The position numbers and the translations under genes were made by a program. Under the pieces are notes generated by a model. That model was not told where the DNA came from and searched no databases. It worked only from the letters and a program-made list of their open reading frames with translations. From an uncultured Prevotella sp. (GTDB lineage Bacteria > Bacteroidota > Bacteroidia > Bacteroidales > Bacteroidaceae), in assembly GCA_900315545.1 (NCBI GenBank), contig OMZM01000005.1, positions 62,001 to 126,000 on the forward strand: a DNA stretch of 64,000 nt, given 5' to 3'. Shown here piece after piece: positions 20,289 to 57,190 of this stretch. Each line of letters opens with the position of its first letter. The stretch's first letter is position 1.

Positions 20289-20785
20289 CTAATCAATTTT
20301 GGCTCGTTTACTGTCGCGAGAATGCCCGCAAAAGTCGTCTCGGAAATCAAAGGGGCAAAATACACTCAAATTTCGCATGTATTTGTAACTCTCTGACAGT
20401 CAGTTTGTTAGTCGAAAACATACGCTTTGGACGCACGAAATACAAGTGTTAAAATTGTCAAAGAGCATGTTTGACAATGTCAAACACACTGTTTGAGGAT
20501 GTCAGACATAGTGTTTGAGGGTATCAGACTCTATGCCTGACAGGGCAAAATAGACGAAACAGGCGCGTCAAACATACTCTTTGACAATTTTAACAGTTAT
20601 CGCCGACCCTTAATTTAACAGAATTTTGCAGTTTGAAGGGCTGTTCCGATTCTATTTGGAGAGTTTTTCCCTGTCAAAATTTTTCATATTTTTCGGGGTC
20701 GGAGAAAAATCCTGTTCACTTTGGCACAGTTTTTGCTGTAAGTCCAAACACTAAGGTTCCCGTTAACGTTAACGTTCCCGTTTTG
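20289..20785 (+). repeat. Dispersed intergenic element, copy A
   Basis: This is one of four related elements in the window. From left: a conserved block (CTAATCAATT... GTCGCGAGAATGCCCGC), a small dyad CTGACAGTCAG, then an array of 19-bp dyads GTCAAAC-N5-GTTTGAC separated by 3 bp (20457-20541, four units at a 22-bp period). A 22-bp break and a fifth dyad at 20567-20585 follow. The segments 20447-20475 and 20567-20595 are reverse complements at 28 of 29 positions. Next come a block shared with copies B and D (TATTTGGAGAGTTTTTCCC), a sigma-54-like motif at 20721-20737 and five GTTNNN hexamers (20756-20785). It sits between divergent genes. Confidence 0.85.
20721..20737 (+). promoter_or_regulatory. 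Sigma-54-like -24/-12 motif in element copy A
   Basis: TTGGCACAGTTTTTGCT has the GG-N10-GC spacing and closely fits the sigma-54 consensus TGGCACR-N4-TTGCW. No enhancer site was identified, the next gene begins 840 bp downstream, and it is not known from this window whether the organism has RpoN. Function is therefore unproven. Confidence 0.3.
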
Positions 20786-21175
20786 ATTGACTCGGTTTTT
20801 GCAGTACATTTTTCATGTCTGCTCATCGGCACGTCTATATGATATTATTAAAATAATATCTGCAACGTTGAAATTCGGACAACACTTTTTCGGTGTCCGG
20901 CGGCATGTACGGCAACATGTAAATGTGGAAAAATTTCTCGTCGGCGGAACTGTTTTTTCATGCGAAAAATTTTTTCCGACAGACAGAAATCCGACCCAAA
21001 TTTTTCGGAAAATTTGTGTTTTTCGACCACAAAATCTACGTAAAATTGACATAGAACAAACATTTATTTTGCAAAAAATTAAAAATTTCCGCAAAATTTG
21101 CACCTCTCAGAACGCCCTGTTTAAAGGCAATTTGAGCGTTTAACACTTTTGTCCAACTTTTGTCCTACCCAAAAA
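20786..21175. other. AT-rich intergenic stretch; no gene seen
   Basis: After element A the sequence is rich in AAATTTTTC-like runs and holds a small hairpin, GGACA/TGTCC around 20877-20898. Short open frames exist on both strands but have no protein-like composition and overlap one another. Confidence 0.4.
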
Positions 21176-21207
21176 TTTGCACATTATCGCATTTCATTAT
21201 ACCTTTG
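21176..21207 (+). promoter_or_regulatory. Consensus promoter of a putative small RNA
   Basis: TTTG (21176-21179), a 20-nt spacer and TACCTTTG (21200-21207) match the Bacteroidetes promoter exactly. No ORF of useful size follows before the terminator at 21399-21431. Confidence 0.75.
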
Positions 21208-21214
21208 CAAACAG

Positions 21215-21431
21215 AAAACGAAAACAACACAGCTAAGCGAGGCTGAACTTAAGATAAAAGTAATAGTTTCTCATAATAAAAAATAGGTAATAAAGTAATG
21301 CATAATAAAATTTCATGGTAATAGTTTTTTATATCCAACACGAAAAAAAGTAATATTATAGTTGATTTCTACAAAAATACTGATTTTTCATGGTGAGTTC
21401 GCAATCTTTGTGAAAAGGTTGCGACTTTTTT
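21215..21431 (+). ncRNA. Putative small RNA, about 217 nt
   Basis: A consensus promoter just upstream and an intrinsic terminator at the end define a short transcription unit between the helicase and DUF2851 genes. The interior is AT-rich and holds only tiny frames (the longest ATG frame near the middle codes about seven residues). I do not recognise it as 6S RNA, tmRNA, RNase P RNA, SRP RNA or a known riboswitch. It could also be an untranslated leader for DUF2851 if the terminator is conditional, though that gene has its own -7 box at 21540-21547. Confidence 0.5.
21399..21431 (+). terminator. Intrinsic terminator of the putative small RNA
   Basis: An 8-bp stem (TCGCAATC at 21399-21406, GGTTGCGA at 21417-21424, one G-T pair) with a 10-nt loop is followed by C and six T, and a second T-run follows. 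Confidence 0.75.
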
Positions 21432-21539
21432 GTATCTTTTTTCAAGACGCCACATTTCTTGACGGCTGAAAACACACCGCAAAACAAAATTATTATGCTA
21501 AAAAATGAGGTTAAATATACATTATAGAACAAAAATTAC

Positions 21540-21547
21540 TAAATTTG
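21540..21547 (+). promoter_or_regulatory. -7 box of the DUF2851-dprA-dusB operon
   Basis: TAAATTTG followed by C fits TAnnTTTG and lies 28 bp before the ATG at 21576. The -33 region is not a clear match. Confidence 0.5.
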
Positions 21548-21575
21548 CATACTGTTTACATCAGCCAATAGCATA

Positions 21576-22874
21576 ATGGAACAACTGTTACACTACTGCT
21601 GGAAGCATAGACTATTTCCAGCCCAGCAACTTTCTACCACCGACGGACAGCCCGTAGAGGTGATAGACACGGGACTGCACAACCATAACGACGGACCCGA
21701 CTTCTTCAACGCGAAGATAAAAATAGGTGGCACGCTGTGGGTTGGAAACATAGAGATACACGACAAAGCCAGCGACTGGTACCTGCACAGGCACGATACC
21801 GACAGACACTACGACAACGTCATACTACACGTTTGCGAAAACATAGACCGCACGATAGTCAACGCCAAAGGCGAGAGCGTGCCGCAGATGGAGATGAGAG
21901 TGCCTGAACACGTCAGGACAAACTATGAGGCACTGATAAACGAAGACCGCTATCCGCCGTGCTACAGGATTATTCCGCAACTGTCGCAGCTGACACTACA
22001 CTCCTGGCTGAGCGCTCTGCAGACCGAGCGCCTGGAGGAAAAGACGAAAGCTATAATGCAAAAGGCTGCCGCCATGTCGAACGACTGGGAGAAAGTGCTT
22101 TTCGCTACGCTGGCACGCAGCTACGGATTCGGACTCAACGGCGACGCCTTCGAGGAGTGGAGCAACACCGTAGACCTTGCCGCCGCAGCCCACCACCGCG
22201 ACGACGTGTTCCAGATAGAGGCTATATTCATGGGACAGGCGGGATTTCTCGACAAGGAAAACATACCGCAGCGACACTACGAGCAGACTGTTGCCGACAG
22301 CTATTTCCAGCGACTGAGCAACGAATATGCCTACCTGAAGCATAAGTTCGGACTGAAAACGATGGACTACAGCCGATGGCGATTTCTCCGCCTGCGACCA
22401 CAGAACTTTCCGCAGATAAGGCTCTCGCAACTGGCTCATCTCTATTGCAGCCGACAGATGTCGCTGAGCAGGATGTGCGAATGCAACACTACAGACGACG
22501 TGGAGGACATGCTTTCCACTCATGCCACGCCATACTGGCAGACACACTTTACTTTCGGCGCAGAAAGCAAGAAGAGCAAAAAGCAACTTTCGCCTGCATC
22601 GCTGCAAGTGCTGACTATAAACACCATTGTGCCGATACTCTTCGCATACGGAAGATACAAGGCAAACGAGAAATATGTGGACAGGGCTTTCTACATGCTG
22701 GAGCAACTGAAAGCCGAGAAAAACAACATCGTTGCCATGTGGCAGGAGTGCGGACTGAAAGCTGATACGGCTGCCGACTCGCAGGCACTTATACAGCTGA
22801 AGACGAAATACTGCGACCGGCGGGACTGCCTCAGATGCAGGATTGGATACCAATATATGAAAACCATGATGTAG
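21576..22874 (+). CDS. DUF2851 family protein
   Basis: The 432-residue protein matches the Bacteroidetes DUF2851 family in its opening (LLHYCWKHRLF) and in GLHNHNDGPDFFNAKIKIGG (about 32-51), followed by WVGNIEIHDKASDW. The family has no assigned function; the acidic and histidine residues in the first 90 positions look like a possible metal or nuclease-like site, but this is inference. The C-terminus has a cysteine pair in CDRRDCLRC. It leads a four-gene run with the thioesterase, dprA and dusB (gaps of 30, 18 and 38 bp). Confidence 0.85.
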   Translation: MEQLLHYCWKHRLFPAQQLSTTDGQPVEVIDTGLHNHNDGPDFFNAKIKIGGTLWVGNIEIHDKASDWYLHRHDTDRHYDNVILHVCENIDRTIVNAKGESVPQMEMRVPEHVRTNYEALINEDRYPPCYRIIPQLSQLTLHSWLSALQTERLEEKTKAIMQKAAAMSNDWEKVLFATLARSYGFGLNGDAFEEWSNTVDLAAAAHHRDDVFQIEAIFMGQAGFLDKENIPQRHYEQTVADSYFQRLSNEYAYLKHKFGLKTMDYSRWRFLRLRPQNFPQIRLSQLAHLYCSRQMSLSRMCECNTTDDVEDMLSTHATPYWQTHFTFGAESKKSKKQLSPASLQVLTINTIVPILFAYGRYKANEKYVDRAFYMLEQLKAEKNNIVAMWQECGLKADTAADSQALIQLKTKYCDRRDCLRCRIGYQYMKTMM

Positions 22875-22904
22875 AAACATTTTATATAACAATATCAACC
22901 GACA

Positions 22905-23303
22905 ATGAAGAACTACGTTTTTGAAACCCGCATGGAGGTGCGCGACTATGAATGCGACATAGAGGGAATAGTCAACAATGCCAACTACATGCACTATATA
23001 GAACACACGCGACACCTTTTCATACGCAGCAAGGGCGTCAGCTTTGCCGAGATGCACGCAAAAGGAGTCGACGCGGTGGTCGTCAAGGCGACAATGCGCT
23101 ACAAGAAACCACTGCGATGCGACGATGTGTTTATTTCGAGACTGGCTGTCAGGAAAGAACGCATACGATATGTATTCGAGCAGGACATATTCCTCGAAAG
23201 CGACAACAGCCTGTGCTTCAGTTCTGTAATAGAACTCGTATGCCTCGTAGACGGCAAACTGGCAGTGAGCGAGGAGTACGACAGAATACTCAACGACAAC
23301 TAA
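22905..23303 (+). CDS. Acyl-CoA thioesterase, hotdog fold (YbgC/4-HBT type)
   Basis: The 132-residue protein has the hotdog-fold signature YECDIEGIVNNANYMHYIEHTR near residues 12-33. The aspartate (in ECDIEG) and the following NNANYMHY segment correspond to the catalytic loop of 4-hydroxybenzoyl-CoA thioesterases. It should hydrolyse acyl-CoA or acyl-ACP thioesters in the cytosol; the chain specificity cannot be told from sequence. It is the second gene of the DUF2851-dprA-dusB run. Confidence 0.9.
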   Translation: MKNYVFETRMEVRDYECDIEGIVNNANYMHYIEHTRHLFIRSKGVSFAEMHAKGVDAVVVKATMRYKKPLRCDDVFISRLAVRKERIRYVFEQDIFLESDNSLCFSSVIELVCLVDGKLAVSEEYDRILNDN

Positions 23304-23321
23304 CAACCATTAGGCAGACAG

Positions 23322-24440
23322 ATGAAAGAAACGATAAGCGCTATGGTCGTGGCTGCCATGAAACACATTCCGCAGAACGGAAAGGTGGAGATGATAAGGC
23401 AAACAGGCTCTGCCAGCGTGCTGACGGAGAACATCGCCGACATAAAGACGGTGCTGCCCGACATAACCGACAAATGGGCGGAAGTTATGAAAACTGCCGA
23501 ACTGCAATACAAATGGGCTGAGGAGGAACTGAAATTCTGCCAGGACAAAGGCATCAGGGTCATACCCTACACGGCTGACGACTATCCGCAACGCCTGAAG
23601 GAATGCAGCGACGCACCGATAGTGCTATACTATAAAGGTACGGCAGACCTCAACCGACAACATATTGTTAGCATCGTCGGCACGCGACACTGCACGGCTT
23701 ACGGACAGGACTGCATACGCCACTTCATTGACGGGCTGAGCGCACAGATGGCAGACGTGCTGATAGTGAGCGGACTGGCTTACGGTATCGACATCTGCGC
23801 ACACCGGCACGCTCTGGCAGACAACTGCGACACGATTGGCGTTCTGGCTCACGGACTCGACACAATATACCCGTCGAGCCACAGAGAAACGGCTCGGCAG
23901 ATGACAACGCACGGAGGACTGCTGACGGAATACCCAACTCGCTCGAAGGTAGACAAGGTGAACTTCATCTCGCGCAACCGCATTGTGGCTGGCATGGCAG
24001 ACGCAACGATTGTCGTAGAGTCGGCTGCTAAGGGCGGAGGACTGATAACCGCTGGCATAGCACGCAGCTACGCAAGAGATGTGTTTGCCTTTCCAGGAAG
24101 GACAAACGACCACTACAGCACAGGTTGCAACAACATGATACGCGACAACGAGGCGGCTATGATAACGTCTGCCGACGACTTTATGAAGATGATGCGGTGG
24201 CAGAGCGATGACAATATAAGAAAAATGCGAGGCAAGGCGATAGAAAAAGACTTGTTTACGGAACTGAACTCTGACGAGCAGAAGATTGTAGCCGAACTGA
24301 AAAGGAACAACGACTTGCAGATAAACCAACTGACCGCAAATACCAATATCTCGATAAACAAACTGTCGCCGATGCTGTTTGAACTCGAAATGAAAGGCAT
24401 CATAAAGGCATACGCAGGAGGTATCTACCATCTGCTTTGA
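23322..24440 (+). CDS. dprA: DNA-processing protein DprA
   Basis: DprA binds incoming single-stranded DNA and loads RecA during natural transformation. The 372 residues contain the Rossmann-like core with SIVGTRHCTAYG (about 116-127), VSGLAYGID (about 149-157), a GLDTIYPSSH segment and ESAAKGGGLITA. A C-terminal winged-helix domain (about 320-372) is also present. The N-terminal 75 residues form the usual helical SAM-like part. The start 18 bp after the thioesterase stop is the only reasonable ATG. Confidence 0.95.
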   Translation: MKETISAMVVAAMKHIPQNGKVEMIRQTGSASVLTENIADIKTVLPDITDKWAEVMKTAELQYKWAEEELKFCQDKGIRVIPYTADDYPQRLKECSDAPIVLYYKGTADLNRQHIVSIVGTRHCTAYGQDCIRHFIDGLSAQMADVLIVSGLAYGIDICAHRHALADNCDTIGVLAHGLDTIYPSSHRETARQMTTHGGLLTEYPTRSKVDKVNFISRNRIVAGMADATIVVESAAKGGGLITAGIARSYARDVFAFPGRTNDHYSTGCNNMIRDNEAAMITSADDFMKMMRWQSDDNIRKMRGKAIEKDLFTELNSDEQKIVAELKRNNDLQINQLTANTNISINKLSPMLFELEMKGIIKAYAGGIYHLL

Positions 24441-24478
24441 AAGCATGACAAGGAAAAAAGGACTAAAGTAATGACAAT

Positions 24479-25441
24479 ATGAAGATAGGCAACATAGAAT
24501 TTGGCAACCGACCACTGTTCCTCGCACCAATGGAAGACGTTACAGACATAGGCTTCCGCATGATGTGCAAGAGGTTTGGCGCTGCTATGGTCTACACTGA
24601 GTTCGTATCGGCAGAAGCACTGATACGCTCGGTAAAGTCGACTATGCAGAAACTTACTATCAGCGACATGGAACGACCAGTAGGAATACAAATCTACGGA
24701 CGCGACGTCGAAGCAATGGTGGAGGCTGCAAAGATAGTGGAACAGGCACGTCCGGACGTAATAGACCTGAACTTCGGATGCCCCGTAAAGAAGGTGGCTG
24801 GCAAGGGTGCAGGGGCTGGCATGCTGAGAAACATACCGCTGATGCTAGACATTACTCGCGAAGTGGTGAAGGCGGTAAGCCTGCCCGTAACAGTGAAGAC
24901 AAGACTGGGATGGGACAACGAGTCGCTTATAATTACCGAACTTGCTGAAAGATTGCAGGACTGCGGCATTGCTGCACTGACTATACACGGCAGGACACGC
25001 TCGCAGATGTACACCGGACAGGCTGACTGGACTCTCATTGGCGAAGTGAAGAACAATCCGCGAATACATATTCCGATAATAGGCAACGGCGACATAACAT
25101 CGCGTGAAGATGCCGACAAGGCATTCGACCGATACGGCGTGGATGCAGTAATGATAGGAAGGGCTACTTTTGGAAACGCATGGCTGTTCTCTGAAAGGCA
25201 ACTGACGCTCGACGAGAAAATAGATGTGCTTGAAGAACAGTTGAGAATCAACGTTGAACGAATAGACGAATACAGGGGAATACTCCACACAAGGAGGCAT
25301 CTGGCGGCTACACCTATATTCAAAGGCATACCAAACTTCAGGAGTACACGCATAGAAATGCTGAGGGCAGAAAAAGAAAAAGAACTCATCGACATCATAG
25401 AGAGGTGCAGAATGATGCTGAAAGACAACAATTTTCAGTAA
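24479..25441 (+). CDS. dusB: tRNA-dihydrouridine synthase (DusB type)
   Basis: This flavoprotein reduces specific uridines in the tRNA D-loop to dihydrouridine with NADPH. The 320 residues include FLAPMEDVTDIGFR (about 14-27) for FMN binding, DLNFGCPVKKVAGKGAGA (about 97-114) with the catalytic cysteine, TIHGRTRSQMYTG and IGRATFGNAW near the C-terminus. It is last in the run starting at 21576. Confidence 0.93.
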   Translation: MKIGNIEFGNRPLFLAPMEDVTDIGFRMMCKRFGAAMVYTEFVSAEALIRSVKSTMQKLTISDMERPVGIQIYGRDVEAMVEAAKIVEQARPDVIDLNFGCPVKKVAGKGAGAGMLRNIPLMLDITREVVKAVSLPVTVKTRLGWDNESLIITELAERLQDCGIAALTIHGRTRSQMYTGQADWTLIGEVKNNPRIHIPIIGNGDITSREDADKAFDRYGVDAVMIGRATFGNAWLFSERQLTLDEKIDVLEEQLRINVERIDEYRGILHTRRHLAATPIFKGIPNFRSTRIEMLRAEKEKELIDIIERCRMMLKDNNFQ

Positions 25442-25468
25442 AAAACACTCTATGTGATTATTTTTTCA

Positions 25469-25476
25469 TATATTTG
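25469..25476 (+). promoter_or_regulatory. -7 box before the tricorn-like protease gene
   Basis: TATATTTG followed by C fits TAnnTTTG and lies 60 bp before the ATG at 25536; there is no clear -33 TTTG. Confidence 0.5.
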
Positions 25477-25535
25477 CAGAAACATAGTATATATACATTA
25501 TTAATAAGGAATAATAACAATAACACATAATAACA

Positions 25536-28500
25536 ATGAAACAGTTACTTATATTCATTACGCTATTTGTTTCCATTACAACCAACGCAGTCGGTAATCC
25601 ACTATGGCTGCGACACAGTGCAATATCGCCCGACGGCAAGGACATAGCCTTCTCATACAAGGGAGACATATACCTGGTTTCTACAGAAGGTGGCGTGGCA
25701 AGACAGATGACTACAAACGCAGCCTACGATGCCTATCCCGTATGGAGTCCCGACGGGCAGAAGATAGCCTTTGCATCTACTCGCGAGGGTAGCTTCGACA
25801 TATACCTGATGAGCCGATGGGGCGGTGAGCCACGCCGACTGACAACGTCGAGCAACAGCGAGATACCTATGGCTTTTGCCGACAACGACAACGTGCTCTA
25901 TCTTTCAAACATCATGCCGACGACTGAAAGCATATTCTTCCCTTCCAGCTCACAGCCACAAGTCTACAAGGTGGCTGTCGACGGCTCGCGACCGACAATG
26001 TTTTCTGCACTGACAATGGAGGATATATGCATCAACAGGAGCAATGGCAACATTCTGTTCCACGATGCCAAAGGATACGAAGACCCGTTCCGAAAGCACC
26101 ATAAGTCGCCTATAGCAAGGGATATATGGCTGCAACAAGGCGAGAAATATACGAAACTGACCTCGTTTGAGGGTGAAGACCGTACGCCACGATGGGCTGC
26201 CGACGGACAATCGTTCTACTATCTGAGCGAGGAAAGCGGCTCATTCAACGTCTACAAGAGAAATATTGACAGCGACAGCAAGCAGCAGCTGACGTTCCAC
26301 GCAAAGCATCCTGTGCGCTCGCTGACAGTGGCTGACAACGAAACGCTGTGCTATACTTACGACGGCGAAATATATACTGTCTCCTCGGGCGGCACACCTG
26401 CCAAAGTGGAAATATACATCTCGGCTGACCGAAACGACCGCGAACTCATAAGACAGACACTGCCTACGGGTGCCAGCGAGATTACCTTGTCGCCAAACGG
26501 AAAGGAACTGGCATTTGTAGTCCATGGCGATGTATATGTAACTTCGCTTGAATACAAGACCACAAAACAGATAACAGACACTCCGGAGGAAGAACGCAAC
26601 ATCTGTTTCTCGCCCGACGGAAAGAAGATAGCATACACTTCGGAAAGAGACGGACTGTGGCAGATTTACCAGACGACAGCTAAGAACAGCAAGGAGAGCA
26701 ACTTTACATACGCCACAGACCTTGAAGAAAAGCGTCTTACAGAGACATCGCTGACGGCATTGCTGCCAAAATACAGCCCAGACGGCGAGAAAATTGCTTT
26801 CTTCGAGAACCGAAGCACACTGAAAGTGTTAGACCTGAAAACGAAAAAGACTACTACTGCGCTCGACGGCAAGTATGTCTTCTCGTACAGCGACGGAGAT
26901 ATCTGGTTTGAATGGAGCCCCGACAGCAAGTGGCTGCTGGCTCCTTACATCGGCGAAGGCGGCTGGAACAACACCGACGTGGCTCTCGTCAGTGCCGACG
27001 GGAATACCGTTCACAACCTGACACAGTCTGGATACAACGAGAGTCCGGCTAAGTGGGCACTCAACGGAAAGGCTATACTGTTCTACAGCGACAGGGCTGG
27101 ATACAGAAGTCATGGCAGTTGGGGAGCCGAACAGGATGCCTACCTGATGTTCTTCGACCTTGATGCGTATGAGCAATTCCGCATGAATAAGGAGGAAAAG
27201 GCACTCTTCGACGAGCAAAAGAGCGAGGAAGAGAAAGCTAAAGCCAGTCAGAAAGAAGGCAAGAAAGATGAAAAGAAAGGCAACGGAAGCAAGAATAAAA
27301 ACAACGGAGGCAAGAAAAAAGACAGCAAGAAGGAAGAATCCAAACCTGCTGTAGAGCCTCTGAAGTTCGACATCGACAACTGCCGCGACCGCATTGTACG
27401 CATGACCGTCAACTCATCGTTTATGGCTGACGCCGTGCTTAGCCCGCAGGCAGACACATTATACTATCTCGCTCGCTTTGAAGGCGACTACGACTTGTGG
27501 AAACACGAGATAAAAGCTGGTAAGACAGAGATAGTTATGAAAGGTGTGGGGGCAGGCGAACTGCATGCCGACAAGAACTTCAAGAACATTTTTGTGGCAT
27601 CAAACGGCACGATACGCAAGATTGACATTGCAAGCGGACAGCCAAATAACATAGAGTTTGAGGCACGTTTCAACTATAAGCCTTACAAGGAACGCGAGTA
27701 TATGTTCAACCATGTGTGGCGTCAGATAAAGGATAAATTCTATGTAGAAAACCTGCACGACGTTGACTGGGACTACTACAAGAAGTCTTACGAGCGCTTC
27801 CTGCCACACATAAACAACCGCTACGATTTCAGCAACATGCTGTCGGAGATGCTCGGCGAGCTCAACGCATCGCACACGGGAGCACGTTTCTTTGCTTCAG
27901 GAGCAAGCATGCAGACGGCAACGCTTGGCGCTTTCTTCGACAATGACTATGACGGCGACGGTTTGCGCGTGGCAGAAGTGCTGAAGAAAGGTCCTCTGGC
28001 TGTAAGGAATACAGGAGTAACTAAGGGTACTATCATAGAGAAAATCGACGGCGAACCTATCATCAAGGGCAAAGACTACAACTATATGCTCGACGGAAAG
28101 GCAGGCAAGCGCGTACGACTCACTATACTCGATCCGGGCAAGAAAGCCTCGCGAGACATAATCGTCAGACCTATTACCAACGGCGAGCAGAACGAACTGC
28201 TGTACAAACGCTGGGTTGAGCGCAACAGGAAGATGGTCGACTCGCTGTCGAACGGACGCATTGCCTACGTCCACGTCAAGGCGATGAACAGCGAGAGCTT
28301 CAGGACGGTATTCTCGGAGTTGCTCAATGATGAGAACAGGAACAAGGATGCCGTCATCGTAGACGACCGCCACAACGGCGGCGGATGGCTGCACGACGAC
28401 CTCTGCACACTGCTCAGCGGAAAGCAATACCAGAGTTTCGTTCCTCAGGGAAGGAAAATCGGCATCGACCCATGGAACAAATGGACCAAGCCGTCGTGTG

Positions 28501-28805: not shown

Positions 28806-28808
28806 TAT

Positions 28809-32760: not shown

Positions 32761-32894
32761 GTTTCTTGACGATTTCGGCGGTAAAAACAATGCAGAGACC
32801 TACGGAACGGCGACGGAAATGCGGACGGGAACGGTTGATTTCTACTGCGCGACGCGATGCAAAATTCATGGCGGTTTTGGCAACGTTTGTGATT

Positions 32895-33280
32895 TTTTTT
32901 TGACAAAGGGAAACAGTCCAAAGAGAAGTTAACAAACCTTTCGGGCAGCAAAAATTTGTAAAACACAACACAAAAGACAAGTGTTAAAAATGTCAAAGAG
33001 TGTGTTTGAGCGTTCTGTTTTGCGATTTTTGCGTGCGAAGTGCTGCGTTTGATAGTGCCAAACACTATGTTTGACCTCCTCAAACAGTGTGTTTGACATT
33101 GTCAAACATACTCTTTGACAATTTTAACACTCATATTTTTTGCATACAAAACTTATTTTTCAAACTAACAGTCTGACTGTCAGAGAATTAAGACTACACG
33201 CGAAAAACGGGCATATTTGCGTGCCGAATTGCTCGCGACGGCTTCCGACGGCACTCACGCGACAGTAAAAAATAATCAAT
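32895..33280 (-). repeat. Dispersed intergenic element, copy C (diverged)
   Basis: Read on the minus strand it has the same layout as copies A, B and D: a left block containing ACTGTCGCG, CTGACAGTCAG, a dyad array (GTCAAAG-N5-GTTTGAC and relatives) and the outer pairing arms 32981-33009 and 33102-33130. The right part is degraded, with TTCTCTTTGGACTGTTTCCC in place of the block conserved in the others. The sigma-54-like motif and hexamer array are missing. It lies between convergent genes. Confidence 0.7.
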
Positions 33281-46727: not shown

Positions 46728-46988
46728 CTACTACATGCTAAATACTATTGAAAATAGTGTCTTGAAGATTACAGATTATTATTACAGCTAATAAATAGAT
46801 TTTTTAAAGTAAATAATTTGACTTTCTATAGGTAATAACCTTTCATAATTACGAACAATTTGACTTTACTAAATTAACTTTTCTTTCTAAAATTTAGTGT
46901 ATTATATTAAGTGTAATACATATTATATAAAAAACCAACAAATCAGCGACCTTAATAGGAATATTGCGATACTCAAACGAAAAAATTA
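46728..46988. other. AT-rich intergenic stretch; no gene seen
   Basis: The stretch between the PAP2 hairpin and element B is strongly AT-rich and has no ORF or structure that I can support. Confidence 0.4.
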
Positions 46989-47504
46989 CTAATCAATTAT
47001 TGCCCGTTTAGTGCCGCGAGAATGCCCGCGAAAGTCGTTTTTGAAATCAGAGGGGCAAAAAACGCCCGTATTTCGCATGTCTTTATAATTGTCTGACAAT
47101 CAGTTTGTTATGTTGAAATATAGCGTTTGTGCACACGAATTGTATATGTTAAAATTGTCAAAGAGCATGTTTGAGATTGTCAAACACACTGTTTGAGGAT
47201 GCCAGACATAGTGTTTGAGGGTCTCGGACACAGTGTCTTGCAGGGCGAAAATGGCGAAATGGGTGCGTCAAAGAGGGTCTTTGACATTTTTAACAGTTGT
47301 CGCCGACCTTAAAATTAACACATTTTTACAGTTTTGAGGGCTGTAAAATTTCTATTTGGAGAGTTTTTCCCTGTCAAAATTTTTCATCATTTTTCGGCTC
47401 GAAAGAAAAATCTGATGAGTTTGGCACGGTTTTTGTAGGGAGATGATTCTAATGGGAATGATAACGGGAACGGGAACTTTAACCTTAACGCTAACGGGAA
47501 CTTA
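46989..47504 (+). repeat. Dispersed intergenic element, copy B
   Basis: Same layout as copy A: CTAATCAATTAT start, GCGAGAATGCCCGCG block, CTGACAATCAG dyad, then four dyads at a 22-bp period (47157-47241) and a fifth at 47267-47285. The outer arms are 47147-47174 and 47268-47295. The TATTTGGAGAGTTTTTCCC block follows, then TTGGCACGGTTTTTGTA at 47421-47437 and nine AACNNN/AATNNN hexamers (47451-47504). It is closer to copy D than to A or C. It lies upstream of leuS. Confidence 0.85.
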
Positions 47505-47714: not shown

Positions 47715-47748
47715 CCGACAAATATATACTTATTAGTTTTTATACACG

Positions 47749-50565
47749 ATGGAATACGATTTCAGAACGATAGAAAAGAAATGGCAACAGCGATGGGTCG
47801 AACAGAAGACCTATCAGGTGAAGGAAGACAACAGCAAGGAGAAGTTCTATGTGCTCAACATGTTCCCCTACCCTTCTGGTGCGGGACTGCACGTGGGACA
47901 TCCATTAGGATACATAGCCAGCGACATCTATGCCCGATACAAGCGCCAGCAGGGCTTCAACGTGCTTAACCCGATGGGCTACGATGCCTACGGACTGCCG
48001 GCTGAACAGTATGCCATACAGACGGGACAGCACCCTGCAATAACGACGGAAGAGAACATAAACCGATACAGACAGCAGTTGGACAAGATTGGATTCTCGT
48101 TCGACTGGAGCCGCGAGGTGCGCACATGCGAGCCGAAATACTATCACTGGACTCAATGGGCGTTCATGCAGATGTTCAACTCGTTCTACTGCAACGACTG
48201 CAAGAAGGCTCAGCCAATACAGAAACTCGTGGAACACTTCTGCGAGAAAGGCACCGACGGGCTGAACGTGGCTCAGAGCGAGGAACTCTCGTTCACAGCC
48301 GACGAATGGAAAGCGATGAGCGAGCAGCAACAGCAAGCCACGCTGATGAACTATCGCATAGCATATCTCGGCGAAACGATGGTCAACTGGTGTCAGGAAC
48401 TGGGCACGGTGCTTGCCAACGACGAGGTGGTAGACGGACTGTCGGTGCGCGGAGGCTATCCCGTAGTGCAGAAGAAGATGCGCCAGTGGTGCCTCAGGGT
48501 GTCGGCTTACGCACAGCGACTGCTCGAAGGACTCGACACCGTCGACTGGACCGACTCGCTGAAAGAGACGCAGCGCAACTGGATTGGACGCTCGGAAGGT
48601 ACGGAGATGAACTTCAGCATAAAGGACAAAAACTTCAGCATAACTGTCTTTACGACACGCGCCGACACCATCTTCGGAGTAACATTCATGGTGCTCGCGC
48701 CCGAATCGGAATACGTCGGCATGGTTACGACCGACGAATGCCGCGCCAAAGTGGATGCCTACATAGAGAGAACTAAGAAGCGCACGGAGCGCGAACGCAT
48801 ATCAGACCGACGCATGACGGGCGAGTTTACGGGCAGCTATGCCGTCAACCCGTTCACGGGCGAGGAGATACCGGTCTACGTCAGCGACTATGTCCTTGCC
48901 GGATACGGCACTGGCGCCATCATGGCTGTGCCTGCACACGACTCGCGCGACTACTCGTTTGCCAAGACTTTCGGTCTCGAGATACGCCCACTGATAGAGG
49001 GTGCCGACGTCAGCGAGGAGAGCTACGACGCCAAAGAGGGCATCGTATGCAACTCCGCATGCGACAAGTTCTCGCTCAACGGACTGACCGTGAAGGAGGC
49101 AATAGCCAAGACTAAGCAGTATGTTACGGAGCACAGACTCGGCAAAGTGAAGGTGAATTACCGTCTGCGCGACGCCATCTTCTCGCGTCAGCGCTACTGG
49201 GGCGAGCCGTTCCCCGTATTCTACAAGGACAACATGCCATACATGATACCAGAGGAATGTCTGCCGCTGGAACTGCCGGAGATAAACGAATACAAGCCTA
49301 CCGAAAGCGGCGAGCCGCCACTCGGACGCGCAACGGCATGGGCTTGGGACACCGAAGGCAACAAGGTGGTGGACAAGGCGCTCGTAGACAACAAGCGCAT
49401 CTTCCCTCTCGAACTGAACACCATGCCTGGATTTGCAGGCAGCTCAGCATACTACCTGCGCTACATGGACCCACACAACGACAAGGCGCTCGTAGGCAGC
49501 GATGCCGACAACTACTGGCAGCAGGTAGACCTGTACGTGGGAGGAACGGAACACGCTACGGGACACCTCATATACTCGCGCTTCTGGAACAAGTTCCTCT
49601 ACGACTTGGGCGTGTCGTGCAAGGACGAGCCATACAGGAAACTCGTCAATCAGGGCATGATACAGGGACGCTCAAACTTCGTCTACCGCATAGCCAACAG
49701 CGGCGATGCACAGCACCCGACGTTCGTGTCGGCAGGACTGAAAGACCAGTACGAAGTAACACCGATACACGTTGACGTCAACATCGTCAGCAACGACATA
49801 CTCGACACAGACGCTTTCCGCCAGTGGCGACCGGAATATGCAGACGCCGAATTCATACTTGAGAACGGCAAATACGTCTGCGGATGGGCAATAGAAAAGA
49901 TGTCGAAGTCGATGTTCAACGTCGTCAACCCCGACATGATAGTAGAAAAATACGGCGCCGACACGCTCCGACTCTACGAAATGTTTCTCGGACCGGTAGA
50001 ACAGTCAAAGCCTTGGGACACCAACGGTATAGACGGATGCCACCGATTCCTAAAGAAATTCTGCAATCTCTTCGACAATATCGACGACAACGAGCCTACA
50101 AAGGAACAACTGAAAAGCGTGCACAAACTGATAAAGAAAGTGTCGCAGGACATAGAACACTTCTCCTACAACACGTCGATATCGGCATTCATGATATGCA
50201 CCAACGAGTTGCAGCAACTGAAATGCCACAACCGCAACCTGCTCCGACAGCTTGCCGCCGTCATCTCGCCGTTTGCACCACACCTCGCCGAAGAACTGTG
50301 GGAACGTCTCGGAGGCGAAGGAAGCGTCTGCGACGCAGCATGGCCACAGTGGAACGAGGAATATCTGGTTGAGGACGAAAAGCAAATGACTATCTCGTTC
50401 AACGGCAAGGCACGCTTCCAGATGCAGTTTGCTGCCGATGCCGACAACAAGACCATAGAGGAAATGGTGCTTGCCGACGAAAGAACGGCTAAATACACAG
50501 AAGGCAAACAGATAATGAAAGTCATCATTCCAAACAACAGACTCGTCAACGTAGTTTGCAAATAA
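47749..50565 (+). CDS. leuS: Leucyl-tRNA synthetase
   Basis: Class I synthetase charging tRNA-Leu. The 938 residues include the HIGH motif as HVGHPLGY (about 46-53), the CP1 editing domain ([18 protein letters not shown], about 301-318, with the threonine-rich editing site), the KMSKS motif as EKMSKSMFN (about 716-724) and a C-terminal anticodon-binding domain. YitT follows after 37 bp and rdgB after that, so they may share transcription. Confidence 0.97.
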
Positions 50566-50602
50566 CAATAAAATATAACAATAATCTTACCATTACTGTC
50601 GT

Positions 50603-51577
50603 ATGAACTTAGACACATTAAAAGACACAATAGCAAAAAAGAAGTACCGCCATGAGATAATGGACTACGTATGGATAACCGTCGGACTGACCTTCTACGG
50701 CTCGGCATGGGCACTGTTCCTGCTGCCATACAAGATAGTGTCGGGCGGCGTAACCGGTATATCAGCCATCATTCTCTATGCAACAGGCTTCCCGATGGAA
50801 TACACCTACTTCATTCTGAATGCATGTCTGCTGGTGGTAGCACTGAAAATACTCGGGCTGAAATTTATGATGAAGACCATATATGCCACATTCGGACTGT
50901 CGCTAATGCTGAAACTGTTTCAGCAACTGGTAACAAACGACGACGGAACAGTCATGCAGATACTCGGCGAAGGACAGGACTTCATGTCGCTTATCATAGG
51001 ATGCTCGCTCATGGGAACGGGACTGGCGCTTGTCTTCCTGCACAACGGATCTACAGGAGGCACCGATATCATAGCAGCCTGCATAAACAAATACAAGCCC
51101 GTATCGCTCGGACGACTGCTCATAGCCATCGACGTGATAATAATAGGAAGCTGTCTGCTCAACCCTAAGTTTGGCACAACTATGGTCGACAGAGTACATA
51201 CCGTAGTGTTCGGACTCTGTACTATGGTCGTACAGAACATCATGCTCGACTACGTTATGAATGCACGCCGAGAGTCGGTACAGTTTCTTATATTCTCCAA
51301 GAAATACGACGAACTGGCTCATATACTCGCAACAGAGATGTATCACGGCGTAACGCTGCTCGACGCACACGGATGGTACTCCAAGCAGGAGATGAAAGTC
51401 ATCTGTCTGGTAGCCCGCAAACGCGAGTCTATATCCATCTTCCGACTGATAAAAATGGTCGATCCAGACGCTTTCGTATCGCAAAGTTCTGTCATAGGAG
51501 TATATGGCAAGGGCTTCGACGAGATGAAAGTGAAAGCCAAGAAAATGGAACCGGCTAAAAAAAAACAAACAGTTTGA
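50603..51577 (+). CDS. YitT family membrane protein
   Basis: The 324 residues hold five to six membrane helices (DUF161 region, for example [19 protein letters not shown]) and a C-terminal cytoplasmic DUF2179 domain ([20 protein letters not shown], about 250-269). [10 protein letters not shown] near 149-158 is a conserved family loop. YitT proteins are widespread, with no firmly established transport substrate. A Lys-rich tail ends the protein. The gene sits between leuS and rdgB. Confidence 0.9.
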
Positions 51578-51597
51578 AACATAGAACACAGCATAAT

Positions 51598-54312
51598 ATG
51601 AAGATTGTCTTTGCAACCAACAACAGCCACAAGCTCGACGAGGCACGCAAGATACTCGGAAACGACTTCGAGGTGGTGTCGCTTGCCGACATAAACTGCC
51701 ACGATGAGCTGCCCGAAACGTCCAACACGCTCGAAGGCAACGCCTTGCAGAAAGCCAACTACGTATGGGAACACTTCCTGAAAGGCACCAATACGCCTGT
51801 CGTTGCCGACGATACAGGACTGGAAGTGGATGCGCTGGGCGGCGAACCAGGCGTGAGAAGCGCCAGATATGACGACAACAGCGACCACGACAGTGAGGCA
51901 AACATGAGGAAACTGCTGGCGAAACTTGCCGGCAAAGACAACCGAAAGGCTCGTTTCAGAACGTCGATAGCTCTGCTGGTGGACAACGGCGATACTGGAA
52001 AAGAGGGCGAGAAATATAATAAATATGCCTTCGAGGGTATCGTAGACGGCAATATTACCAACGAGAAACACGGCACGGAAGGCTTCGGCTACGACCCAAT
52101 ATTCCAGCCAGACGGCTACGACAAGACCTTCGCAGAGCTCGGTGCAGGCATAAAAAATACCATTTCGCACCGCGCAAGGGCAATGCAGAAACTTGCAGAC
52201 TTTATTAAAAGCAATCTGCTTGCACTCTGCCTTCTCATCGCGATGCTTGCCGGCGGCAGCCAAATTGCAGGCAACGGTGCTGCGGCACAGGGTGTAGGCA
52301 CATGGCAATGTTACTGGGCGTACAACGATATTACTGAGATTCAGCCTGCCGGAAAGAAGGTATTTGTGCTCAGTTCGAAAGGTTTGTTCTCCTACAACGT
52401 TGCCGACCAGAGTGTCGAGACCTACGACAAGATGAATGTTCTGAACGACTGCAACATCGCACACATAAGGTTTTCGCCACAGACCAAGCGCCTGCTGATA
52501 GCCTACGAGAACCAGAACATCGACCTGATAGACCTCGACGGGAACGTGATAAACATTTCAAATCTCTACAAGAAGTCGATGACGGAGGATAAAACCATCA
52601 ACCACATCTATATAAACGGCACCGATGCATACTGTGCAACGGGCTTCGGAATAATGAAAATCAACATGCGCGATGCCGAAGTTGCCAACACCTACATGCT
52701 CGGATTTAGCGTAGACCACAGCTATATAGACAGGAACAACATCTACGCAGCATCGAAGGAGAAAGGTCTTTACTGTGCGCGGCTGTCTGACAACCTGCTT
52801 GACAAAAGCGTATGGAAACGCGTTGGCGAATACAAGGCTAACGATGAGAACATGCGGCTGGTTGCCGACGATACCAACAAATGCTTCTGGACAGCCGACG
52901 AAAACAACTCGCTGACGGCTTACAAGCTTGTCGACGGCAACAAGGTTACTACCGTTACGGCTGTCAAGCCCGACGGTCCGGCATACAACTACTATGGCTA
53001 CATGGTCTACAACGAGGGCAGGCTCTATACATGCGGCGGTGGTTACGGTGCACTGTCGGAACTGAACAGGAAGCCGGCGGCACAAATCTACGAAAACGGG
53101 GAATGGCGACTGCTGGAGGAAGACCTGCAGGCGACAACAGGACACAGGTATGTTGACGCTCTGGTCATTGCCAATGAGCCTGGAAATCCAAACCATATAT
53201 TCGTCGGAGGACAGACCGGACTATATGAGTTTAACGACACAAAGTTTGTCAAGCACTACAACATTGACAACAGTCCGCTGCAAAGTGCCACGTCGAACAA
53301 CAGCAAGAACTATGTGCTTGTGGAAGGAATGGCGTTCGACGACAGTGGCAATCTGTGGGTAGCCAACAGTCAGGCAAAGTCAACATCGTTAGCATGTCTG
53401 GGCAAAGACGGACAGTGGAGCACGGTCAGCAAGGCTGAATTTATGAACGGAGAGCGTTCGCTGTCAGCCATGAAGTCGCTTATGTTCGACTCGCGCGGCT
53501 TGCTGTGGTTTACTAATGCACACTGGGAAAAGACATCGTTCTATGCCTACGACACCAAGACTGGTGGTGTAAACAGCTATACATCGTTCATCAACGAAGA
53601 CGGAATACAGGTAAATGCCAACTCCGTCAACCACATAACGGAAGACTACGAGGGCAACATGTGGATATCAACCAACGTTGCGCCGCTGCTGTTGCAGAAG
53701 GAAAACATCGCCGACGGCTCCAACGCTGTGCTGCAGCAGGTAAAGGTTCCGCGCAACGACGGCACCAACCTTGCCGACTATCTGCTTGACGGAGTGAGTA
53801 CGTCGTGCATCGCTATCGACGGCGGAGGTCGCAAATGGGTTGGCACGACCGAGAACGGAGTGTATCTTATCAGTGCCGACAATATGTCGCAGATATACCA
53901 TTTCATGCCCGAAAACAGCAAGCTGCTGTCAAACAACATAGAGTCGATAGCCATAAACGACGAAACCGGCGAAGTGTTCTTCGGCACCGACAGGGGTCTG
54001 TGCTCGTTCATGAGCAATGCAACCAGTCCTTCTGACGAGATGACGACCGACAACGTATATGCCTACCCAAACCCTGTAAGTCCAGACTATACAGGACTTA
54101 TCACCGTTACGGGTCTGACCTACGATGCCGACGTCAAGATTGTTACGTCCAACGGCGTGCTTGTGGCGCAGGGACGAAGCAACGGAGGCTCGTTCACATG
54201 GGACGGTTGCGACACTAAGGGCAGGAAGGTGGCATCGGGAATATATATGGTTCAGACGGCTACCTCTACCGGCGAGAAAGGTACAGTATGCAAGATAGCG
54301 ATAGTAAGATAA
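51598..54312 (+). CDS. RdgB/HAM1 nucleotidase fused in frame to a PorZ-like T9SS surface protein
   Basis: One uninterrupted frame of 904 residues joins two proteins. Residues 1-204 are a complete RdgB/HAM1 pyrophosphatase that removes ITP, XTP and dITP ([14 protein letters not shown] at 4-17, [43 protein letters not shown] at the usual C-terminus). Where HAM1 normally stops comes a hydrophobic stretch ([15 protein letters not shown]...AAAQG, about 205-231) that looks like a signal peptide. The remaining 670 residues form beta-propeller repeats and a C-terminal type IX sorting domain ([19 protein letters not shown] near 827-845, GIYMVQ), resembling PorZ. An internal ATG at 52183 could start PorZ with its own signal. 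Start at 51598 is the first ATG. Confidence 0.85.
52183..54312 (+). CDS. porZ: Alternative internal reading: PorZ-like protein with signal peptide
   Basis: Initiation at the ATG 52183-52185 would give a 709-residue protein starting [20 protein letters not shown], whose n-region, hydrophobic core and AAAQG end suit a signal peptide. In P. gingivalis PorZ is an outer-surface component of the type IX attachment complex that binds A-LPS; it has propellers and a C-terminal domain, as here. Whether the cell makes this product, the full fusion, or both cannot be decided from sequence. It is not an additional gene but an alternative start within the fusion. Confidence 0.45.
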
Positions 54313-55634
54313 GTCTGTTACAGTCGCAATTTGTTGAGACTAACTTCAGAAAGATATTAAACATCATTGCGATATCTTTCTTTCTGCTGCTCGTAGTTGT
54401 TCTGCTGGTGTTCGGATATACGCCGCAGAACGATACCGAGGGATATATCCAACTTGCCCGCACATGCCTTGCGGCACATCAGCCATACCCCTGCATGGAA
54501 GTGATTGCAGGGCAGCCGTTTATCTGGAACATAGGACAGATAAACCTCATTGCCCTCAGTCTGTGGCTCTTCGGCAGCGTTGTGCCCGTGCTGTGGCTCA
54601 TGTGCATCATGAAGGCGGCTACCCTTTGGCTTGTCGGACACATTGGCAGGCACTTCTTCGGGGCAGCGGCAGGCGTCTGCGCGGCACTCCTCTATATGCT
54701 CTATCCCAACAACTGGGGTCAGAGCACCATGCTTCTCTCCGAGATACCTATGGTATGTCTGGGCTTGCTGGCTATTTTTCTCGTTCTACGCACGCACTCG
54801 CTGGCAGTTGTTTTCCTTGCCGGCATCATCATGGCTGTAGCCAACTGGTTCCGTCCGGTGGCAATGGTCTATGCCGGCTCGCTGTTTCTCTACTACATCA
54901 TCTTCCGTCGCCAAGACTTTGTCCGCCGCATGCTGCCCATGCTGGCAGGCTATCTGCTGGCGGTCGTTGCCATCGGTACGTCGTGCTACATGCGCACAGG
55001 ATATTTCGTATATCAGTCGGAAACACTGTGGTTTAACATGTCGGAAGCCATCTACGAGACTTCTTCGGAGCCTCACTACGACAGCGAGATGTTTCCGAAA
55101 GGCACGCCGCGATACATCGAGGACATGGCGTCGAAGACCTGTTTCGAGTGCGACAGCATCTGGCGCGAGCGCAGCCTGGCGTGGCTGAAGGCTCATCCTG
55201 CCGACTACATGAAGAAGATTCCCGAACGCATGGCATGGCTTATGTACAACGACATCGACAACGTCGTGGCTTTCAAGGCTGACAAAAGCAATGCTGCCGA
55301 CAACAACATAACGCTGCCCTACAGGTCGATACTCACGCAGATATCGTCGCTCTCGGGCATCCAGATGCTCGCTCTGGCTGCTATGGCGTGCTATTTCGTA
55401 CTGCTCGTGCTTGCTGCCGTCGGCATCATACGCCTGTGCCGTCGCCGCCGGTGGGCAGACTTGTTCCTGCCGTTGTTCATCGTGGCTGGCGGAGCGCTTG
55501 CCATTGTCATTGCCGTGCATGGCGAGCCGCGATTTAAGGCACCGCTCATGCCGTTCCTCTTCATGCTCGCTGCCGCAGCGACAGGCAGCCTTCAGAAAAC
55601 AAATGAAATGAAATTGACAAACCGTAAAAACTAA
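54288..55634 (+). CDS. GT39-like membrane glycosyltransferase
   Basis: The 448 residues contain about ten membrane helices and an early acidic motif ([16 protein letters not shown], about 43-58) in the position of the catalytic loop of dolichyl/undecaprenyl-phosphate-mannose transferases of the GT-C fold. Such enzymes glycosylate proteins or lipid A at the periplasmic face. The start overlaps the end of the RdgB-PorZ gene by 25 bp, and the acyltransferase follows 7 bp after its stop, indicating one transcript. A role in A-LPS or surface glycan modification linked to PorZ is inference. Confidence 0.8.
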
Positions 55635-55641
55635 TATCGAA

Positions 55642-56628
55642 ATGAACAGGATTAACTGGGTCGACACGCTGCGTGGCATCGCGATGCTTGCCATACTGCT
55701 TTTTCACACGGAAGTGTATTATGCTGACACCGAAATCATCAACTACAACTTCTATGTAGCCAACATGCTGACTGCCTTTGCCTTTGTCAGCGGATATCTC
55801 TTTGCCAATCCGCAGCAGCCCTTCGGCTACCGCAAGAAGCTCACGGGCATAGTCCGCTCGCTCATCGTCCCATACTTTGCTTTCTGCACAGTGCTGGCAC
55901 TGGGCAAGTCGCTCATGCACAGCAGCGGGTACACCGTTGGCGAGCTGCTGCTCCACGTGCTGACGGGACAGGCATCGTGGTATGTCTCGGCGCTCATCAT
56001 TGCCGAGATTTTCACCGCCACAGCCTTTGTGCTGACACGTCAGAACAAGGTGCTCCTCGCTGTTACAGCCCTGCTGTGCATCGTCTTTACGGCTGTCTGC
56101 CACAACGACGGCACTGCCGTTGCCTGCCGCATACCCGATTTCTGGAAGTGGGAGGAGGCTCTGCTGCTCGTACCGTTTATCATTCTGGGACATTTCTACC
56201 GGCTGTATGAGCCTCGCCTGCAGTGGCTCAACACAACGGCAGCACTGATTGCCATGCTGGCTGCCGTCATTGCGCTGAAATACGCAGCACTGTCAGCAGG
56301 CTGTTCGCTGTGCATTGCGCCCGTAACGGTAAGCAACTATCTGCTGTTTGCTGCCGACATGATTGTCTCGGCGCTGCTGCTCGTGAACATCAGTCGCCGC
56401 TTCTGCCTGCAACTGGTAACATTCATTGGGCAAAACTCGCTGATAGTCTACTTCCTCTGCGGCGCCATTCCGTTTATCGTTACCTACATCTTCCGCAGAA
56501 TAGGACTGCACTACAACGGCAACTACTTCAGCATCTTGCTGGCTTACGTCTTCGTCGTAGACCTGACCACCATCAGCACCTACGTCATCAGCCGCTATAT
56601 ATACAACCCACTACTGAAGCGGAAATAA
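55642..56628 (+). CDS. Acyltransferase family 3 membrane protein (OafA/YrhL-like)
   Basis: The 328 residues start with NRINWVDTLRGIAMLAILLFH, the defining first helix of acyltransferase 3 proteins with the R and H residues, and have about ten membrane segments. Such enzymes O-acetylate or otherwise acylate extracellular sugars such as LPS O-antigen or peptidoglycan. It sits directly after the GT39-like gene. Element D begins 6 bp after its stop, and no separate terminator is seen. Confidence 0.88.
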   Translation: MNRINWVDTLRGIAMLAILLFHTEVYYADTEIINYNFYVANMLTAFAFVSGYLFANPQQPFGYRKKLTGIVRSLIVPYFAFCTVLALGKSLMHSSGYTVGELLLHVLTGQASWYVSALIIAEIFTATAFVLTRQNKVLLAVTALLCIVFTAVCHNDGTAVACRIPDFWKWEEALLLVPFIILGHFYRLYEPRLQWLNTTAALIAMLAAVIALKYAALSAGCSLCIAPVTVSNYLLFAADMIVSALLLVNISRRFCLQLVTFIGQNSLIVYFLCGAIPFIVTYIFRRIGLHYNGNYFSILLAYVFVVDLTTISTYVISRYIYNPLLKRK

Positions 56629-56634
56629 GTCAGC

Positions 56635-57190
56635 GTTCCCGTAAACGTATAGGTTAAGGTTAAAGTTCCCGTTAGCGTTCTCGTTCCCGTTAGCGTTAAG
56701 GTTAAGGTTCCCGTTAGCGTTCCCGTTGGAATCATCTCCCTACAAAAACCGTGCCAAACTCATCGGATTATTCTTTCGAGCCGGAAAATGATGAAAAATT
56801 TTGACAGGGAAAAACTCTCCAAATAGAAATTTTACAGCCGCTGAAACTGTATAAATGTGTTAATTTCAAGGTCGGCGACAACTGTTAAAAATGTCAAAGA
56901 CCCTCTTTGACGCACCCATTTCGCCATTTTTGCCCTGCAAAACACAGTGCCCGAGACCCTCAAACACTATGTCTGGCATCCTCAAACAGTGTGTTTGACA
57001 ATCTCAAACATGCTCTTTGACAATTTTAACATATACGTTTCCTGCGCGAAAGGTTTATGTTTCGTGCTAACATTTTGACGCTCAGACAATTACAAACCAG
57101 TGAGAATTTTGGGCATATTTTGCCCCTGCAATTTCAGAAACGACTTTCGCGGGCATTCTCGCGACAGTAAACAAGCCAAAATTGATTATA
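56635..57190 (-). repeat. Dispersed intergenic element, copy D
   Basis: Inverted relative to copies A and B. Read on the minus strand it starts with TATAATCAATTTTGGC at 57190, has the GCGAGAATGCCCGCG block, the dyad array with outer arms 57031-57004 and 56910-56883, the TATTTGGAGAGTTTTTCCC block and TTGGCACGGTTTTTGTA at 56757-56741. It ends in 16 hexamer units (56635-56730, GTTNNN or GTANNN on the plus strand). It is nearly a copy of B, so B and D form long inverted repeats around 47.5-56.6 kb. Confidence 0.85.

Follow-up and report, generated by a model that had tools for sequence, protein, structure and literature searches.

The 64,000-nucleotide stretch analysed here (the window) comes from an uncultured Prevotella sp. 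and corresponds to C33:62001-126000 of an assembly of 2,288,422 bases (2.29 Mb) in 56 contigs, C33 being contig OMZM01000005.1 of GCA_900315545.1. It carries four intergenic elements, A, C, B and D from left to right, in which an initial annotation had seen a common order of blocks. Matches to a family profile (a model of 460 columns) were obtained for all four (Table 1), confirming that the elements are real and share this order. What had been taken for a family of four is indeed one family, but it has about 145 copies in this genome instead of four. Each is a non-coding unit of about 458 bp, and the family has the appearance of a site maintained for control or organisation across the chromosome rather than that of a jumping element in decay.

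By gene calls, two of the elements, C and D, occupy convergent gaps, the number that had been annotated, while A lies in a divergent gap and B between co-directional genes. The outer arm of the dyad array occurred 8 times in the window with at most two mismatches, twice per element (0 in 100 shuffles), and the right-end motif (at most one mismatch) was found 3 times, only at A, B and D (shuffle mean 0.03). The right extents first given for these three elements were too long; the conserved unit ends at 20739, 47440 and 56738, and the hexamer runs beyond these points lie outside the family. Such degenerate runs (GGGAAC, GTTAAC, CTTAAC etc.; 20755-20785, 47450-47504 and 56630-56730 in the window) adjoin the right ends of A, B, D and some other copies, and similar runs occur free of any element in two relatives, G008 and G067. 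The right block had been described in A, B and D only, and its motif is absent from C; however, C did not merely lose it, as this element has an end of its own, TGTCAAAAAAAAATCACAAA, which was closely matched in 5 of the 9 other incomplete copies inspected.

Table 1. Coordinates of the four elements and their parts in the window
Feature	Position	Strand	Basis
Element A, complete, type I, divergent gap	20283..20739	+	profile 456.3 bits, model 2-458
Dyad array of A; outer arms 20447-20465 and 20577-20595	20447..20595	+	exact arms
Sigma-54-type promoter motif of A, TTTGGCACAGTTTTTGC, rightward	20720..20736	+	sequence, motif count
Element C, minor subtype (type II), without sigma-54-type motif, convergent gap	32886..33269	-	
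Profile match of C	32898-33269	-	279.2 bits, model 26-398
Right end of C, TGTCAAAAAAAAATCACAAA	32886-32905	-	end motif
Dyad array of C, between outer arms	32982..33129	-	arms with 1 and 0 mismatches
Element B, complete, type I, co-directional genes on either side	46983..47440	+	profile 448.6 bits, model 2-459
CTGAC-TCAG dyad of B, CTGACAATCAG	47093..47103	+	sequence
Dyad array of B, outer arms, 22-bp direct and inverted repeats	47147..47295	+	
Sigma-54-type promoter motif of B, -12 base T (TTTTTGT)	47420..47436	+	sequence, motif count
Element D, complete, type I, convergent gap	56738..57194	-	profile 449.5 bits, model 3-459
Dyad array of D, between outer arms	56883..57031	-	arms with 2 and 0 mismatches
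Sigma-54-type promoter motif of D, leftward, -12 base T	56742..56758	-	sequence, motif count

When element B was used as a query against the genome, at least 69 matches were obtained (40 of the 174 candidates were scored). Patterns for the right and left blocks (at most three mismatches) hit 86 and 92 places, respectively, with no hit for the reversed controls, and clustering of these matches gave 133 places. Exact arm matches on contigs up to C23, together with element C, raised this number to 145, and two copies (C17:118908 and C33:43816) were added by reading C17 and positions 1-60000 of C33 completely. The figure of about 145 is approximate, as fragments at contig ends may be halves of one copy and copies on other contigs were possibly missed. 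The outer arm (at most two mismatches) occurred 276 times genome-wide and its reversed control not at all. Among 134 copies in the fetched stretches, 107 were complete and aligned over 460 columns with a median pairwise identity of 75% (range 53-93%) and only 2.0 gapped columns per copy. Most of these gaps were due to 9 copies that are about 22 columns, or two helical turns, shorter (columns 134-154 and 76); this is the sole recurrent length change, and these copies were set aside to leave 98 for the column statistics. One copy (L137) lacks about 45 bp ahead of the promoter motif described below and retains the motif itself. The copies have sharp ends, and their flanks are unrelated to each other. 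Contig ends within element copies are common (e.g., C2, C17, C22, C32 and C56), and because so many contigs start or stop inside a copy, the assembly was probably broken by these repeats.

To examine divergence between copies, 16 reciprocal closest pairs among the 98 copies (81-92% identical) were compared, with the conservation class of each column judged from the other copies. Columns conserved at 95% or more differed at 39 of 3054 sites (1.3%), compared with 195/1601, 290/1387 and 472/1313 in the less conserved classes (36% in the last). Pair differences therefore avoided conserved columns about 28-fold, and gap differences numbered 2, compared with 996 substitutions. An insert without function would be expected to accumulate changes uniformly along its columns, and this uneven divergence thus reveals that selection acts on each copy in place. 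No other result speaks as strongly against a simple mobile-element reading. The initial annotation had offered a non-autonomous mobile element as one of three explanations, and as a present state this was not supported, given the same divergence pattern and two further results. First, no target-site duplication was detected in 105 copies, the mean longest shared end being 5.23 versus 5.22 between different copies. Second, terminal inverted repeats were not significant, with 48 of 500 shuffles as good, in agreement with the annotated lack of insertion-sequence-type ends; no inverted pair joining the ends of B appeared in its repeat listing. A mobile element with target immunity, whose conserved blocks would be the needs of a mobilising enzyme, would account for the insertion-like ends and flanks, the occurrence in both orientations, the avoidance of close copies and the near-confinement to one species described below. 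However, the pattern of pair differences, the near-absence of gaps and the lack of duplications and inverted ends argue against it, as does the finding that 110 of 111 copies contain no called gene, although no search aimed at a partner transposase was made. We consider this explanation unlikely.

The placement statistics were based on 111 copies, 23 of the 134 having been dropped for short flanks; genes were called with a hexamer model trained on the window, and numbers concerning gene context are approximate. The elements lie between genes, as had been annotated, favour transcription-unit borders and ignore gene direction. Relative to the orientation of the element, the neighbours were divergent in 38 cases, convergent in 25, both forward in 25, both backward in 21 and assignable on one side only in 2, which means that the elements ran along the genes in 25 co-directional gaps and against them in 21. 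The right neighbour was sense in 63 cases and antisense in 47. On C17, C18 and C33, elements occupied 9 of the 41 gaps between divergent genes, 9 of the 32 between convergent genes and 14 of the 220 between co-directional genes. Element orientation showed no relation to the local coding strand (17 of 35 agreed) or to the sign of the local GC skew (14 of 35).

Elements follow each other roughly every 11 kb. Over 13 contigs, 2 of 50 inter-element gaps were shorter than 6 kb, compared with 19.5 under uniform placement (minimum 8 in 5000). For C17, C18 and C33, random intergenic gaps weighted by configuration served as the null; 1 of 33 gaps was below 6 kb, whereas the null gave a mean of 11.6 and never fewer than 4 in 3000 rounds. 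The spacing had a coefficient of variation of 0.56 versus 0.91 +- 0.12. In the only close pair on fully read contigs (L047, C17:146485-147266), a partial copy (model 29-213) faces a complete one head to head at a distance of 140 bp. The large element-free gaps of C17 and C18 yielded no extra copies. The C17 gap spans 38 kb and 33 called genes, all on one strand, and the 10 genes scanned in it mostly concern glycan and lipid synthesis; the large gap of C18 is mixed (10 of its 25 called genes scanned).

Even spacing might also be a by-product of recombination. Similar repeats can recombine, and if close ones did so and vanished, scattered ones would survive; PINSR, a repeat of Prevotella intermedia compared below, was linked to rearrangement in its description (PMC4755523). 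However, neighbours in opposite orientation (20 gaps), which would be expected to invert and not to delete, avoid short distances equally with those in the same orientation (13 gaps), with the exception of one nested inverted pair, and the copies are only about 75% identical. This origin of the spacing thus appears quite unlikely.

Type I copies, which form the majority and include A, B and D, end in an outward-facing TTTGGCAC-NN-TTTTTG, where alignment columns 439-446 hold TTTGGCAC and columns 449-454 hold TTTTTG. Thirteen of the 14 fixed positions of this motif were kept in 97-98 of the 98 copies and the remaining one in 96. The base following TTTTTG (the -12 base) was C in 70 copies and T in 28, and the base following TGGCAC was G in 58 and A in 40. 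The consensus of sigma-54 promoters (-24/-12) is YTGGCACG-N4-TTGCW, and, judged by its sequence, the right end reads as a match to this signature, a feature absent from the initial annotation. RpoN was found in the genome (7.6e-47; a second match stood exactly at the cut-off), as were four matches to PF00158, one strong (7.5e-65) and three weak ones at the level of control genomes of all kinds. The strong match is a protein with an activator AAA domain and a Fis-type helix-turn-helix, in which no receiver domain was found. Its gene lies at C17:3953-5230 in the order rlmN-pdxA-LPG-synthase-like-activator-lptE, and a sense element (C17:4-443) precedes rlmN (561), the first gene of this operon. 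An element also ends 128 nt before the start of htpG (56 nt under the longer start of the gene caller), which has an imperfect motif 50 nt before its start; at C49:10010-10238 (L142), htpG thus has two tandem sigma-54-type motifs, an imperfect one of its own and that of the element.

In a scan of 100 genomes, the motif as a strict 17-mer occurred 93 times in this genome and once or twice per genome in 10 of the remaining 99, at 13 places in all, 12 of which were examined; the reversed pattern was found twice in the scan. At five of them, from 5 genomes, it stood 35-56 nt upstream of htpG (recognised by sequence; one was confirmed as HtpG). At one place each it lay 45 nt and 106 nt upstream of another co-directional gene, and at one of the 12 it fell at the called gene start itself. 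In Flavobacterium psychrophilum, sigma-54 motifs have been described ahead of HtpG, GroEL, DnaK and other chaperone genes (PMC9723704).

One reading of this motif is that of a dispersed promoter that brings the next gene under the control of sigma-54, so that the repeats would have spread a regulon. The outward direction of the motif, the slight excess of sense right neighbours, the more frequent -12 C before sense genes, and the elements preceding the activator operon and htpG would fit it, whereas the nearly balanced co-directional gaps and the 25 copies between convergent genes would not. Among complete copies with sufficient flank, all 14 fixed bases were intact in 55 of the 57 whose right neighbour is sense and in 41 of the 43 whose right neighbour is antisense, which implies that the motif is kept whatever the next gene is. 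The neighbours, moreover, keep promoters of their own. The Bacteroidota-type -7 box is TAnnTTTG; it was present between the element and the sense right gene start in 50 of the 55 gaps that measured 60 bp or more (shuffles 6.4) and between the element and the left divergent gene start in 46 of 51 (shuffles 5.3), compared with 1 of 38 antisense gaps (shuffles 2.1). Elements therefore sit outside complete promoter-gene units, and even htpG retains its imperfect motif nearer than the element. Promotion of the neighbour as a general role was rejected on the direction counts and the retained native promoters, while the -12 C mildly favours it; overall, a dispersed promoter of this kind seems unlikely.

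At its core, the element has inverted half-sites arrayed at intervals of one helical turn (11 bp), with TCAAA alternating with TTTGA. The AAA/TTT periodicity peaks at 10.75 bp with a power of 0.98 (shuffles at most 0.12). In the 98 copies, the three-base spacer of the first palindrome was CAC in 68, GTG in 29 and another in 1, and that of the second was TAG in 85, CTA in 6 and others in 7; the spacers of both palindromes are thus present in both orientations. Loop inversions of palindrome spacers occur in plastid genomes, and the inversions seen here suggest that the palindromes extrude or recombine as DNA. Reverse-complement pairs were found in 12 of 245 three-base windows with a common second state, and because most of them are one-base changes (e.g., AAT/ATT), only the three-base switch of the first palindrome carries weight by itself.

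A structured RNA family transcribed from the elements, the second explanation of the initial annotation, would be in line with the long conserved dyads and with the folding of the single strands of B, which was better than that of shuffles (z -3.1 and -4.1). However, among the 35 pairs predicted by RNAalifold from 61 of the 98 copies, 1 showed a double change, and the covariation term contributed -0.8 of -23.2 kcal/mol, a score reached by 56 of 500 shuffles; covarying base pairs were thus not above chance in these 61 copies, with the qualification that 20 of the 35 pairs are invariant and hence uninformative either way. The Rfam scan of the window matched only a tRNA, and that of the four element loci gave one sub-threshold match (E 0.41). 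We also considered the G-U richness of the inner hairpin (columns 220-260) as a sign of selection on RNA, and dropped it because the columns of pair 224/256 vary almost independently. An RNA family is therefore very improbable. The two outcomes named beforehand as refuting the annotated family, an Rfam match and a restriction to four copies, did not occur.

Conservation in relatives, which the initial annotation had asked for, is close to nil. The exact arm was present in 2 of 399 genomes of the group, this one included, and the family appears nearly confined to this species. A search of 100 group genomes with element B gave five matching genomes at E <= 0.001, its own among them; one (G005) holds a single truncated copy, and three matched weakly, in the hexamer tail only (G008 and G067) or over a 33-bp stretch (G052). 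The genome RUG13423 carries two copies on one contig and none elsewhere at equal sensitivity, and these occupy the same two sites as in the present genome. The stretch shows 98.6% identity to C33 for 10.7 kb and 90% for the next 3.9 kb, and its later parts reach only 65-72% against the window; the copies likely resulted from transfer or from mixing in assembly. Beside one of them, RUG13423 (CADALZ010000030.1; L177 467-9295) contains about 8.8 kb of extra DNA absent from the present genome, where the flanking matches overlap by 32 bp (C33 44356-44387). A wider contig scan yielded at least 7 stretches; among the matches listed, five others and one viral contig matched around the arm only, with 8-16 bits, and were taken as chance.

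Two near-complete relatives were searched for repeats of their own, and one of them, G084 (two contigs of 1.97 and 0.71 Mb, of which 200 kb were sampled), proved to have such an element. It spans 226 columns and matched 30 places in the sample, 25 of them complete, with 75% mean identity and no gaps, and it contains a 22-bp array of TTTTGC/GCAAAA half-sites with an AAA/TTT period of 11.0. A 17-mer of this element occurred 182 times in G084, 137 times in G017 and 6 times in G337, with single occurrences in five more genomes (8 of 399 in all), and not at all in the present genome; since 21 of the 30 sampled places hold it exactly, G084 perhaps carries 260 copies. The exact arm of the present family was found neither in G084 nor in G017. 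Gaps between G084 elements also avoid short distances (2 of 19 below 3 kb, null 7.8). By eye, the G084 consensus has no correctly spaced sigma-54 motif, and its local alignment score with the present family was reached by 11 of 300 shuffles on the same strand and 27 of 300 on the other. A third array type was seen in G061. A lag of 22 was shown by 25 of 26 array hits in the present genome (mostly elements), by all 20 in G084 and by 4 of 5 in G061. In the small pieces sampled from other relatives, arrays were scarce and had lags of 18-27; 8 of the 13 other group genomes sampled had none, nor did the loci of other families. Further 22-bp tandem arrays of quite different sequence lie apart from the main families, in G084 (L239 17994-18100, L237 13968-14078, L244 11169-11297 and L236 8759-8840) and in the present genome (L199 14889-15005).

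Among the three explanations of the initial annotation, a chromosome-organisation site fits best, given the even spacing against the intergenic-slot null and the indifference to gene direction. We propose that the family is a DNA-level sigma-54 enhancer-promoter-like site, selected in place and acting chromosome-wide, and give this reading a probability of about 0.4; binding, firing and the chromosome-scale role are the parts that we infer. The inverted half-sites, arrayed along one face of the helix, would stand some 130-275 bp upstream of a -24/-12 promoter. An oligomeric DNA-binding protein may fill the array, the candidates being a nucleoid protein and the genome's one clear activator of sigma-54, while sigma-54 RNA polymerase would wait at the right end, from which the promoter would fire outward. 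The approximately 145 sites at transcription-unit borders might then act together, as domain borders or as stress-switched DNA openers, and would not be promoters of particular neighbours.

Several observations weigh against this proposal. In 28 of 98 copies, including B and D, T stands at the -12 position, and the minor subtype, to which C belongs, has no promoter motif at all. The -12 C was found in 44 of 57 copies before sense neighbours versus 25 of 43 before antisense ones, a hint that sense copies are somewhat better promoters and that some do serve the next gene. In relatives, only 5 of the 12 places with the 17-mer lie before htpG, and 4 have no suitably placed gene. Finally, even spacing can also stem from transposition immunity or recombination. 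If the proposal is true, a maintained system of evenly spaced non-coding sites takes up as much as about 3% of the assembly (145 x 458 bp), and a sigma-54 promoter that mostly ignores its neighbours would surprise specialists of both sigma-54 and chromosome organisation; it would also give a direct handle on the role of PINSR-type repeats. By a wider and doubtful extension, Prevotella-type bacteria would possess fast-turnover chromosome-spacing elements, built as arrays of inverted half-sites at a spacing of one helical turn. Their letters would be species-specific, while the period, the high copy number, gap-free evolution and even spacing would persist, each species having its own reader protein or a re-tuned specificity; in the present species such an element would have been joined to a sigma-54 promoter, and a stress signal could then reach the whole chromosome simultaneously at about 145 evenly spaced points.

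Compared with known systems, the family differs from a miniature inverted-repeat transposable element in showing neither terminal inverted repeats nor target-site duplication. REP/BIME and ERIC-type repeats of enterobacteria are likewise dispersed, palindromic and intergenic; unlike the present elements, they are shorter, and we know of none with sigma-54 promoters or even spacing. With sigma-54 promoters that have upstream enhancers, as described in Bacteroidota (PMC9723704), the family shares the -24/-12 motif and dyad sites at an enhancer-typical distance, but it consists of about 145 near-constant cassettes that ignore the direction of the next gene. Among the open-access papers listed, BrickBuilt and PINSR were the only near matches. 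BrickBuilt of Porphyromonas gingivalis is described as 19 copies with a variable repeat number, short IS5-family-like inverted ends, promoter activity and strong predicted stem-loops (PMC4596501). Like our family, it is intergenic, with a leader and a tail flanking an array of units of about two turns (23 nt there); unlike it, the present family has a 22-bp period and near-constant length, and no IS5-type ends were seen. The initial annotation was nearly right that no described family has this layout, with the reservation that PINSR is similar in general habit. PINSR is 188 bp long, with 177 and 184 copies in two strains and about three quarters of the regions common to both, and its role was left open by its describers in 2015 (PMC4755523). 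Both are dispersed, intergenic and non-coding, lack inverted ends, number well above 100 copies and occur in few related species. Judging by the description, the G084 element is probably PINSR of the P. intermedia group, even though the copy numbers (about 260 versus 177/184) are not close, and it shares gap-free evolution and the 22-bp array with our family. However, the present unit is 458 bp long, its sequence is not significantly like the G084 element, and its exact arm, found in only 2 of 399 genomes, does not follow the occurrence of PINSR in the P. intermedia/nigrescens clade. The section describing PINSR (PMC4755523) does not mention even spacing or selection in place. The already known kind is thus the PINSR-type lineage-specific intergenic repeat; new are the different sequence, the sigma-54-type end, the subtype without this end, the selection in place, the helical phasing and the even spacing.

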